Below, one piece after another: positions 37,942 to 55,817 of a DNA stretch of 64,000 bases; positions within the stretch are counted from its first letter, which is position 1, and every line of letters starts with the position of its first letter. The DNA is from Motiliproteus sp. (lineage in GTDB: Bacteria > Pseudomonadota > Gammaproteobacteria > Pseudomonadales > Balneatricaceae), in contig JAPHRD010000030.1 in NCBI GenBank assembly GCA_026196225.1, positions 1 to 64,000 on the forward strand, in the 5' to 3' direction. The position numbers were made by a program, and so were the translations under genes. The notes under the pieces were generated by a model. The model made no database searches. It saw only the letters and a program-made list of their open reading frames with translations, and had not been told where the DNA came from.

Positions 37942-38052
37942 CTAGAGGTATTCAGCATCGACCCTTACTACCAGTGTCCACGGTGTATTGCGCTTTATCT
38001 CAAAGCGATCTTAAGCATCCGTCAACGCCACTGAATTATCAGCCTGTCACTT

Positions 38053-38105
38053 GGCCTGTTAACACTTAATGGATCGCGCGCTAATCCTACAAGTATTAAC
38101 AGGCC
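38053..38105. repeat. 53-bp miniature inverted-repeat element in the flgK leader
   Basis: GGCCTGTTAACACTTA (38053-38068) is mirrored by AAGTATTAACAGGCC (38091-38105), a 15-nt stem with one mismatch and a 22-nt loop. These sequences are essentially the same as the terminal repeats of the 280-bp element at 52329-52608, so this looks like an internally deleted copy. It ends 24 nt before the flgK ATG. Confidence 0.8.
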
Positions 38106-38129
38106 TTAATAATCCAACGGGAGGTTATC

Positions 38130-51843: not shown

Positions 51844-52326
51844 CTAACTCTGCAGGCGGTTGAACAATTCCAGCCATAGCCGTACCTGATCGGCGGGCAG
51901 GCTTAGATCAAGTTCCAGCATGGTTTCGCATTCGTTGCGACAGAGTTCTCGCTCTTCAGTTGGTACGCTAACCAGCAACTCGGCCACCGGTCGAATAGCT
52001 GTTTCCATTTCTCGGTCTAGACTGTCGCAAATCTTCTCCAGCGCTTGTTCGGTCTGGTAAGGATCGATGCAGTAAAGCGGATTGTCCTCCAGATCCAGCA
52101 AGAGCTCTTCAAATACCGATTTCGGACTGTGACCTTCATGAAGCAGGGTTTCCGGGTCGGTACTCATTAGTATCCCTTGTTCATAGATCTCATCGAGCCA
52201 CTCGCTGTCCGGGCTGATCAAAGTAGATTTGATCTGTCCGCTGCTGAGACTCCATGCGACAGCGATGGGGAAGGCATCGTCTTCGTAACTGCTCATTTCA
52301 AAAGCGATGATCAAGGGGTAATTCAT
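51844..52326 (-). CDS. Degenerate DnaQ-like (3'-5' exonuclease fold) protein, hypothetical
   Basis: 160 residues, acidic. The first half follows the pattern of small DEDD exonucleases: a start like PLVIDIExS (here PLIIAFEMSS), FPIAVAWSL, TLISPDSEW, a MSTDPETLLHEGHSP segment and PLYCIDPYQTEQAL. The first catalytic Asp is Ala (the following Glu remains) and the usual HxI is lost, so it is probably not an active nuclease. The C-terminus is helical (RELCRNECETMLELDLSLPA). Its start codon lies only 3 nt from the terminal repeat of the neighbouring MITE-like element and has no good ribosome binding site, so the element may have displaced its promoter. The fold is inferred by eye. Confidence 0.6.
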   Translation of the reverse strand: MNYPLIIAFEMSSYEDDAFPIAVAWSLSSGQIKSTLISPDSEWLDEIYEQGILMSTDPETLLHEGHSPKSVFEELLLDLEDNPLYCIDPYQTEQALEKICDSLDREMETAIRPVAELLVSVPTEERELCRNECETMLELDLSLPADQVRLWLELFNRLQS

Positions 52327-52328
52327 AC

Positions 52329-52608
52329 TAGGGCCTGTTAATACTTATGAGATTTACACGACAGTGGTCATTTTTTCGCAAACCAAGGCGCAGCGAGTGT
52401 CGAGTAGTTATTCTACTTTACTCTACTCAAGCGATCTGCAACGCTGGATTGCGGGAAAATGGCCCTGTCCCTGTCGGTTGTGCCTGTCATCAGGCTGTGC
52501 TGTGTTATTCGTCGATCATTTGGAATAACCAAACTTCTCTCCTTATACCTTGCTCAGCCGGATGACAGGCAGCAACGTGTTTAATCGGCTAAGTGTTAAC
52601 AGACCCTG
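52329..52608. mobile_element. MITE-like element with terminal and nested inverted repeats
   Basis: A roughly 280-bp non-coding block bounded by TAGGGCCTGTTAATACTTA (52329-52347) and TAAGTGTTAACAGACCCTG (52590-52608), inverted repeats matching at 16 of 19 positions. Inside are two imperfect stem-loops: 52359-52382 pairs with 52449-52470 (GACAG...CATTTT...CGCAA type), and GCCTGTCATCAGGCTG (52482-52497) pairs with CAGCCGGATGACAGGC (52555-52570) with one mismatch. It encodes no protein. The same terminal repeats recur as a 53-bp miniature before flgK. No clear target duplication was recognised. Confidence 0.78.
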
Positions 52609-52713
52609 GTCTATACTCTGTTTTCGGGTTGGATTATCAGCCTAAAGTATTGCTTTTAGGGGTTGGGATTAGCCAAAGTAGACCAAGGTCTTACTTCGCG
52701 TAGACCAATGTCT
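52601..52713. promoter_or_regulatory. Three AGAC-N4-GTCT palindromes upstream of acs (candidate CrbR sites)
   Basis: AGACCCTGGTCT (52601-52612), AGACCAAGGTCT (52680-52691, perfect 12-bp palindrome) and AGACCAATGTCT (52702-52713). The last two begin 22 bp apart, two helical turns. A half-site AGACCC follows at 52719. A possible -10 box CATAAT lies at 52762-52767, placing the sites at activator positions. Related units precede the symporter operon. The first site overlaps the right end of the MITE-like element. The assignment to CrbR is inference. Confidence 0.6.
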
Positions 52714-52947: not shown

Positions 52948-54906
52948 ATGAGCGAAATTAAGGTATATCCGGTCAACCCTGAGCTGGCTGCTCAGGCGCA
53001 CGTCAACGAAGAAACCTATCATCAGATGTACAAGCAGTCCGTCGAAGATCCCGATGGCTTCTGGGGCGAGCAAGGTCAGCGTCTAGACTGGATCAAGCCG
53101 TATACCAAAGTTAAGAACACCTCATTTGATCCGCACAATGTCGATATCCGTTGGTTCGAAGACGGTACTCTGAATGCCTCTGTCAACTGTCTTGACCGTC
53201 ACCTGGAAACCCGTGGTGATCAAGTTGCCATCATCTGGGAAGGTGATGACCCTAGCGAAGATCAGAATATTACCTATCGTGACCTGCACGAGCGCGTCTG
53301 TAAGTTTGCCAACGCACTGAAAGCTCAGGGCGTAGAAAAGGGTGATGTTGTTACCCTTTACATGCCAATGATTCCGGAAGCAGCGGTTGCTATGCTGGCC
53401 TGTACCCGTATCGGTGCGGTTCACTCCATCGTATTCGGTGGTTTCTCTCCAGAAGCCCTGGCTGCTCGTATCGAAGGTGCAAATTCCAAGGTTGTTGTAA
53501 CTTCTAACTACTCTCTGCGTGCTGGTAAGTCTGTTCCACTTAAAGCAAACGTTGATAAAGCCCTTACCCATGAAGGTGCCAAGGCCTGCGTTGAAAGCGT
53601 AATCGTTGTTAAGCGTGTTGCTGACGATGTTGCTTGGAATGACTCCGTCGATGTTTGGTACGAAGATATTGTTGCTGATGCCTCTGCTGACTGTGCTCCA
53701 GAAGAGATGGAAGCAGAAGCTCCTATGTTCATCCTTTACACCTCTGGTTCCACGGGTGCACCTAAAGGTCTGAAGCACACGACTGGCGGATACATGGTTT
53801 ATGCAGCCATGACCCACGAGTTGGCGTTCGACTACAAAGAGGGCGACATCTATTGGTGTACTGCTGACGTAGGTTGGGTAACCGGTCACAGCTACATCGT
53901 ATACGGGCCTCTGGCCAACGGTGGCACCTCTGTAATGTTTGAAGGTGTTCCAAGCTACCCAGATAACAGCCGCTTCGGTCGTGTTATCGAGAAGCATAAA
54001 GTTAATCAGTTCTACACGGCTCCGACTGCTATCCGTGCATTGATGCAGCAAGGTGAAGACGTGCTGGGTGATTCCGATCTGTCTACTCTGCGTATCCTCG
54101 GGTCTGTAGGTGAGCCAATCAACCCAGAAGCTTGGGAGTGGTATTACCGCATCATCGGTCAGAGCCGTTGCCCAATCGTTGATACCTGGTGGCAGACTGA
54201 AACTGGCGGCATGATGATTATGCCTCTGCCAGGTGCAACGCCAGCTAAGCCTGGTGCTGCTTCTCGCCCATTCTTCGGCGTACAACCTGCCTTGCTTGAC
54301 GCAGAAGGTAAAGAGTTGGAAGGTGCTTGTGACGGCAACTTGGTTATCAAGGATTCCTGGCCTGGCCAGAGTCGCTCCATCTGGGGTGATCACGAGCGTT
54401 TCATCCAGACTTACTTCTCTACTTACAAAGGTGTTTACACCACGGGTGACGGTGCCCGTCGTGATGAAGACGGTTATTACTGGATCACCGGCCGTGTTGA
54501 TGACGTAATCAACGTGTCTGGTCACCGTATGGGTACTGCAGAAGTAGAATCTGCACTGGTAGCTCATGCCGCTGTTGCTGAAGCAGCAGTAGTTGGCTAT
54601 CCCCATGAAGTTAAGGGTCAGGGCATCTACGTTTACGTAACCCTGCAGTCTGGATACGAGCAGTCTGATGAGCTGCTGAAAGAGCTGCGTATGCATGTTC
54701 GTTCCGAGATCGGACCAATCGCTTCTCCAGACCTGATCCAGTTTGCTCCCGGTATGCCTAAGACTCGTTCCGGTAAGATCATGCGTCGTATCTTGCGTAA
54801 GATCGCCGAAGACGATTTCGATGCGTTGGGTGATACTTCTACCCTGGCTGATCCTAGCGTTGTAGATGACCTGATCGAAAACCGTTGTAACCGCAGCAAA
54901 GACTAA
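52948..54906 (+). CDS. acs: Acetyl-CoA synthetase
   Basis: 652 residues, the normal length for AMP-forming Acs. It has the ACS N-terminal domain, the phosphate-binding loop [16 protein letters not shown] (about 263-278), [10 protein letters not shown] (acetate/AMP pocket), the hinge region [20 protein letters not shown] and the C-terminal [10 protein letters not shown] with the catalytic lysine that is a known acetylation target. It converts acetate, ATP and CoA to acetyl-CoA (acetate scavenging). Codon use is strongly biased toward C/T-ending optimal codons, suggesting high expression. Followed by a terminator, then the regulator pair crbR/crbS that controls acs in relatives. Confidence 0.98.
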
Positions 54907-55151: not shown

Positions 55152-55817
55152 ATGCAACTGGCACAGAAAATTATTATTGCCGACGACCACCCGCTCTTTA
55201 GGGCAGCGCTTAAGCAGGCGGTAGCCCAGGCAGTCCCAGATGTTGTTGTGATAGAGGCGGACTCTCTCACAGCATTGCAAGAAACCGTAGAAGCCCACAA
55301 GGATGCCGATCTGGTGCTGTTGGACCTGCATATGCCAGGAACCAACGGATTTACCGGTCTGGTATATCTTCGTGGTCAGAACCCAAGTATGCCTGTCGTT
55401 GTTGTTTCCGGTAGCGAAGAGCCTCGAGTTATGAAGCGAGCTATCGAGTACGGGGCATCTGGATTTATACCGAAATCTGCGCCACTGGATATCATCTCCG
55501 GTGCTATTGTCGCGGTGCTGGAAGGGGAGGTTTGGTTGCCTCAGGATGTGGCTGAGATGGATGAAGGTGTCACCGACGATGATGCTGAATTCGCAGCCAA
55601 GCTGGCGTCTCTGACACCACAGCAGTTCCGCGTACTGATGATGTTGACCGAGGGTTTGCTGAATAAGCAGATCGCCTACGAGCTCAATGTCAGCGAGGCG
55701 ACCATTAAAGCCCACGTAACGGCAATTCTTCGTAAGCTTGGCGTGCACAGTCGTACCCAGGCGGTAATCGAAGCCAGTCGTTTGGGCGTGGAGCCGCCTA
55801 AAACCGAAATGGGCTAA
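55152..55817 (+). CDS. crbR: LuxR-type response regulator CrbR (ErdR-like)
   Basis: 221 residues. The receiver domain (about 5-120) has IIIADDHPLFRAALKQAV, phospho-Asp in LVLLDLHMPGTNG, and FIPKSAPLDIISG. The C-terminal LuxR HTH (about 150-215) reads LTPQQFRVLMMLTEGLLNKQ, then IAYELNVSEATIKAHVTAIL. Position between acs and a symporter-kinase hybrid matches the CrbS/CrbR acetate-switch system of Vibrio and Pseudomonas (also called MxtR/ErdR), in which CrbR activates acs. GAGGGAG precedes the ATG. It converges on crbS across a shared bidirectional terminator. Confidence 0.88.
   Translation: MQLAQKIIIADDHPLFRAALKQAVAQAVPDVVVIEADSLTALQETVEAHKDADLVLLDLHMPGTNGFTGLVYLRGQNPSMPVVVVSGSEEPRVMKRAIEYGASGFIPKSAPLDIISGAIVAVLEGEVWLPQDVAEMDEGVTDDDAEFAAKLASLTPQQFRVLMMLTEGLLNKQIAYELNVSEATIKAHVTAILRKLGVHSRTQAVIEASRLGVEPPKTEMG

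Follow-up and report, generated by a model that had tools for sequence, protein, structure and literature searches.

What is the compact noncoding block that lies upstream of acs in this Motiliproteus genome, how did it come to be there, and has it altered the control of the genes on either side? The 64,000-nt stretch of DNA that was analyzed (the window) had been given a preliminary description that took the block for a MITE-like element with 19-nt terminal inverted repeats (TIRs) and two internal stem-loops. We examined the element itself, its relatives, the transposases that could have moved it, and its two neighbors. The coordinates of all features are collected in Table 1.

Structure of the element upstream of acs

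An inverted-repeat search and a comparison of folding energies with shuffled sequences confirmed the overall design. The right TIR differs from the left one at 3 of 19 positions, and the repeats extend to 28 nt at 79%. Two internal inverted repeats were found, 52366-52385/52445-52464 and 52481-52500/52552-52571. Folded as DNA, the element reached -62.1 kcal/mol, compared with a shuffle mean of -31.35 (standard deviation, 3.97; z = -7.75), and 0 of 200 shuffles was as stable. The proposed lack of coding capacity was also borne out, as the only open reading frame (ORF) of at least 60 aa inside the element has 72 aa and gave no Pfam match. The target ends at this copy read TA and TG, an imperfect TA duplication; the TA duplication at the left TIR was assigned from copies in another genome (G228; see below).

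Table 1. Features of the acs upstream region and of a short relative of the element in the window
Feature	Position	Strand	Remark
Whole MITE copy, 280 bp	52329..52608	+	Six genomic copies, empty sites in sister species, alignment, lengths
Left TIR, TAGGGCCTGTTAATACTTA	52329..52347	+	First TA assumed to be one of the two target copies
Right TIR, CAGGGTCTGTTAACACTTA on the minus strand	52590..52608	-	Final TA reads TG
Hairpin A, inverted copy of the hairpin B motif	52361..52469	-	Hairpin B model matches on the minus strand, 35.2 bits, E = 1.5e-6
10-bp tandem near-duplication	52408..52427	+	Direct repeat; gap in 22/23 alignment rows
Hairpin B, best-conserved internal part	52477..52575	+	Own model, 107.4 bits, with the acs-locus copy in the training set
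CrbR/ACTU-like inverted repeat, AGACCCTGGTCT	52601..52612	.	Half in the element, half in the flank
Second CrbR/ACTU-like site	52680..52691	.	Among 5 species compared, in the acs-locus species and G001
CrbR/ACTU-like site	52702..52713	.	5/5 species compared
160-aa neighbor gene, family not assigned	51844..52326	-	ATG 2 bp from the left edge of the element
acs, acetyl-CoA synthetase	52948..54906	+	Pfam PF00501, PF13193, PF16177
59-bp relative of the element	38050..38108	.	Little beyond two facing terminal repeats; 57-bp copies of like build in G228

Copies in the genome and empty sites in related species

A BLAST search of the 3.96-Mb genome found six copies, which were 70 to 87% identical in the better orientation, a range suggesting that they are old. 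A covariance model of hairpin B recovered these six loci again and, with 150 of 748 candidates scored, no hairpin standing alone. TA was present at both ends in three of the six copies, and the other three lacked it at one end. The 160-aa gene and acs are separated by 621 bp here, versus 315, 243, 235, and 245 bp in the congeners G001, G002, G004, and G005, respectively. The element was absent from this interval in all four, the congeners that have both genes; in the fifth, G003 (89% complete), neither a match to the 160-aa gene nor a close acs was found. Because four sister species with the gene pair lack it, the element is an insertion. The preliminary description would have given way to a lack of other copies or to conservation of the block at this locus as an ordinary regulatory region; neither was found, and the searches for further copies and for empty sites in close strains both came out in its favor. 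The block lies in a divergent promoter region and carries a CrbR-like site at its edge, but a regulatory or intergenic region of acs that had evolved in place in the ordinary way would hardly have five other genomic copies while being missing from the interval in every congener with the gene pair, and this reading is almost certainly wrong.

Hairpin B matches were patchy in the four congeners searched, with seven in G002 (contigs C6, C8, and C9), one in G004, and none in G001 or G003. The 59-bp relative in the window sits between two long ORFs, which from their appearance we take to be flgJ and flgK.

Copies in a genome of another genus (G228) were far more alike. Fourteen copies of 267 bp had a mean identity of 98.8%, and all 20 of the copies chosen for exact TIRs were located at Y-TA-R. 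Read together, this identity and target preference point to recent movement with duplication of the TA. The same genome has 57-bp copies (at L108 and L114) with little beyond the facing terminal repeats, and an insertion can therefore exist without the internal hairpins.

IS5-family insertion sequences with matching ends

The first part of a transposase from genome G306 was compared with 293 genomes and matched in 30, many of the matches being distant. Among the 30 transposase loci fetched, five (G306, G149, G211, G273, and G039), all from other genera, had a matching end pair with 0 to 2 mismatches per TIR, 794 to 812 bp apart. The transposase of the 794-bp G306 copy seems to be disrupted; its pieces match PF13340 and PF01609. 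The G149 copy has two overlapping frames, the second of which passes the NF033580 (IS5 family) threshold (131.6 versus 110 bits), with the first falling below it at 93.7. One Pseudomonas plasmid and two Cupriavidus plasmids carry elements of 817 to 828 bp with like ends. Each of the eight insertion sequences is located at Y-TA-R. The insertion sequences resemble the MITE only at their ends, over about 26 nt at most, and 221 short alignments contained 0 internal matches. Since only the ends are shared, the MITE belongs to type II.

The transposase with matching terminal repeats that the preliminary description had suggested looking for thus exists, but in other genera: neither the own genome (0 in G000) nor its five congeners yielded one, in a draft of 138 contigs where a multicopy insertion sequence could hide in gaps. 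The local copies therefore look stranded. Judging from the sequences, the mobilizer is likely to be an IS5-family insertion sequence of 794 to 828 bp with near-identical TIRs and the same YTAR target with TA duplication. A related IS5-type transposase locus (L129, 1391-2231, in G294) has a different end pair, with 5 mismatches in each, and ends thus vary among relatives.

The element upstream of acs is very probably a type II MITE moved in trans by an IS5-family transposase through its ends of about 19 nt, with insertion at YTAR and TA duplication. Under this mechanism, an enzyme of the IS5-type class would recognize the ends in trans and insert the element at YTAR, duplicating the TA; the local copies would be old and now immobile; and the two inverted hairpins would have been kept since propagation depends on DNA in a folded or cruciform state. 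At acs, insertion moved the 5' leader of the divergent gene away from its start codon, and the conserved CrbR-type site and the promoter region beyond it are uninterrupted.

Spread and length of the family

An order-wide BLAST search matched 30 of the 293 genomes, from 17 of the 119 genera, the own genome included; many of the matches were only 40 to 50 bp long. A motif scan found at least 120 stretches in named genomes and one in viral contigs. Among the matches listed, the viral one included, 122 were sorted into 87 with a measurable end pair, 27 too near the end of the locus, and 8 unpaired. The length was 268 to 270 bp in 61 of these 87 measured elements, with a range of 145 to 323 bp, weak pairs included. 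This statement on length is taken from the wide-window measurement set only; the search windows of the class-wide set used for the pairing and stop-codon counts admitted only about 258 to 282 bp. Although the preliminary figure of about 280 bp holds for the acs-locus copy, it does not hold as the typical size. That copy is longer than its relatives by 10 extra bases because of the tandem near-duplication in hairpin A.

Full-length elements were found in Azotobacter, Pseudomonas, Stutzerimonas, Halomonas, Chromohalobacter, Thiodiazotropha, and an Arenicellales genome, so that the family spans four or more NCBI orders of Gammaproteobacteria in full-length form. The full-length copies from Azotobacter/Pseudomonas, Halomonas/Chromohalobacter, Thiodiazotropha, and Arenicellales were mostly 268 to 272 bp, with the pairing kept. 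In Salinisphaerales, the motif was seen among the matches listed, and no complete element was found there. A phage search gave no match to the element, and a plasmid search gave two records, each across 18% of it. As far as these counts go, the family is wider, and more constrained in length and pairing, than a reading of the single sequence could reveal.

Conservation of pairing within the element

Of 39 candidates, 7 were unpaired, and 23 of the 32 paired elements were aligned; a second alignment used 22 of the 23, leaving out L101. In the 23-element alignment, 93.0% of 2,041 cells were standard pairs and 68 of 89 pairs were changed on both sides, figures flattered by the derivation of the structure from the same alignment. 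The corresponding values were 74.7% and 40.7 in shuffles and at most 44.1% and 40 with slid partners. In a dereplicated set of 48 sequences, kept from 98, a Watson-Crick double change was found in 77 of the 89 pairs. Conserved unpaired letters were also seen in the 23-element alignment. An apparent internal inversion of the L003 and L005 copies was ruled out, both merely lying on the opposite strand.

The interior of a bacterial MITE is often regarded as free to drift, the element itself being taken for decaying debris. We tentatively propose something different here, as a possibility that falls short of an even chance: a class-wide nonautonomous element that maintains its fold and not its letters, with two inverted copies of a hairpin of about 100 nt set between mobile ends. 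Its length would stay close to 269 bp across wide divergence because DNA in a folded or cruciform state has a part in the recognition, copying, or tolerance of the element. The same double changes could also arise without selection if template switching or gene conversion between the inverted-repeat arms kept them paired. Such correction predicts Watson-Crick double changes, few intermediates, and no G-T preference along a whole strand, all of which were seen; by itself, however, it explains neither the near-constant length (among the matches listed) nor the conserved unpaired letters, and we consider it somewhat unlikely. If the pairing reflects selection on the fold and not arm-to-arm correction, the family would offer natural replicates for learning which features of a folded DNA element are read by an IS5-type transposase or by the host.

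Possible consequences for the neighboring genes

The block was said to abut the start codon of one neighbor, to supply through its terminal repeat half of an AGAC-N4-GTCT site, and perhaps to have rewired both neighbors. The first two statements were correct: only 2 bp separate the left edge from the ATG of the 160-aa gene, and AGACCCTGGTCT straddles the right edge. Rewiring of both neighbors is conjectural. About 90 bp downstream of the element lie, uninterrupted, a CrbR-type site shared by all five species compared and, beyond it, the promoter region of acs.

The label "exonuclease-like" for the 160-aa neighbor found no support, as no Pfam or NCBIfam family was found at an E value of 0.001 and a comparison with the PDB gave two chance-level matches (E = 0.21 and 0.99). 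The gene adjoins acs in four of five congeners. Its frame is intact and 69% identical to the G001 counterpart, with a dN of 0.25 between the two species and a dS that was not computable. With the left edge of the element only 2 bp before the start codon, its native leader is displaced. An effect of the insertion on this divergent gene is plausible because the displacement reaches right up to the start codon. Between 52200 and 52960, there was one promoter-like site, versus a shuffle average of 1.0, and no terminator-like site.

On the acs side, all three AGAC-N4-GTCT sites of the window lie upstream of the gene; shuffled sequences had a mean of 0.81 such sites, and 2 of 100 had as many as three. 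The block GCGTAGACCAATGTCTAATT was found in all five species compared and resembles published examples of the CrbR-dependent ACTU motif in the part of the source consulted (PMC5715377). A by-eye comparison makes the edge site a candidate for a CrbR/ACTU inverted repeat. A candidate regulator encoded at 55152-55817 is ErdR/CrbR-like, its best NCBIfam match being ErdR at 272.5 bits, below the 390-bit cutoff; a hybrid kinase gene is also near acs. The family also provides here a plain example of a mobile edge next to a promoter under two-component control.

The edge site may influence acs. In the strongest form of this idea, the insertion together with two substitutions in the right repeat would have created a third CrbR site that changed the control of acs. 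The site contains CAGACCCTG where other copies have CAGGCCCTA, two differences that help make it, and the regulator encoded nearby fits such a role; the match is, however, post hoc, comes from one genome, and lies about 100 bp (center to center) upstream of the conserved site, and the A-to-G end change is also present in the L006 copy, where no such site matters. We regard this co-option as improbable. The acs protein shares 92 to 93% identity with its counterparts in genera g8, g15, and g16 but 83 to 85% with those of four congeners, while the acs upstream region resembles that of the congener G001; gene exchange is one possible reading of these two patterns.

Strand preference and the question of a transcript

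Counted on one strand of the whole element among the Watson-Crick-dominant pairs, the G-T and A-C cells numbered 34 and 47 in the closing stem, 55 and 31 in hairpin A, 16 and 37 in hairpin B, and 8 and 10 elsewhere. This lack of a G-T preference on one strand disfavors selection on a single whole-element transcript. Along the strand of the motif itself, G-T led by about two to one in both hairpins (55 versus 31 in hairpin A and, hairpin B being inverted, 37 versus 16), and a strand-specific constraint on the motif is thus possible. With G-T-dominant pairs included, hairpin A had 91 G-T and 33 A-C cells.

A mobile family of structured noncoding RNAs, with the transcript under selection, would accommodate the excess of pairing and double changes over shuffles, the conserved unpaired letters, and the G-T lead along the motif strand. 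It is nevertheless distinctly improbable, given that no G-T preference runs consistently along one strand of the whole element and that Rfam gave no gathering-score match in the window except a tRNA elsewhere, the single match on the element having an E value of 0.95. We lean toward maintenance of the fold in DNA.

Comparison with known mobile elements

The IS5-family insertion sequences with DUF4096 and DDE domains (NF033580) share with the MITE the TIRs (0 to 2 mismatches in the five examples from the order) and the Y-TA-R target; they differ in carrying a transposase in two overlapping frames, and the shared stretch is at most about the first 26 nt. These insertion sequences presumably correspond to the subgroup named IS427.

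Type II bacterial MITEs have been reviewed (PMC10969869). In the part of that review consulted, they are described, like the present family, as short, bounded by TIRs, without a transposase, similar to an insertion sequence only at the ends, and stably folded; that part mentions no case of near-constant length combined with a covarying whole-element fold across several orders, which sets the acs-locus family apart. According to the portion consulted of another source (PMC2229807), the CIR elements of alphaproteobacteria also have two long inverted-repeat arms with a linker and are conserved between species, whereas they are about 110 bp long, carry a GANTC motif, and have an uncertain mobility mechanism; this comparison is by description only. 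The same portion describes the RUP element of pneumococcus, which resembles the present family in that it is thought to be mobilized in trans by an insertion sequence with like ends, IS630-Spn1, and has TA at the target, and differs in being 107 bp long, in its link to IS630 rather than IS5, and in being described from one species (PMC2229807). Literature searches by keyword and by TIR or sequence string, with limited coverage of mainly titles and abstracts, found no description of the family.

Gene stops at the ends of the element

A long ORF stops exactly at the TAG of the element at 37 of 184 ends (2 of 12 in the own genome, 12 of 36 in the order, and 23 of 136 class-wide), and at 20 further ends the stop lies deeper inside the element (2, 3, and 15, respectively). 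Targeting of stop codons was considered and rejected: uniform use of YTAR in noncoding DNA plus stops predicts 18.2 cases (standard deviation, 2.6), with 21 of 86 seen, and we therefore make no claim of targeting. Gene prediction was crude in this analysis, above all in GC-rich loci, as was the YTAR background. At the L003 copy, the preceding 499-aa ORF is full length relative to its congener counterparts. There (L003, 3-1502), at L006 (1-1503), and at 35 of 172 ends outside the own genome, the first bases of the element (TAG) supply the stop codon of the gene.
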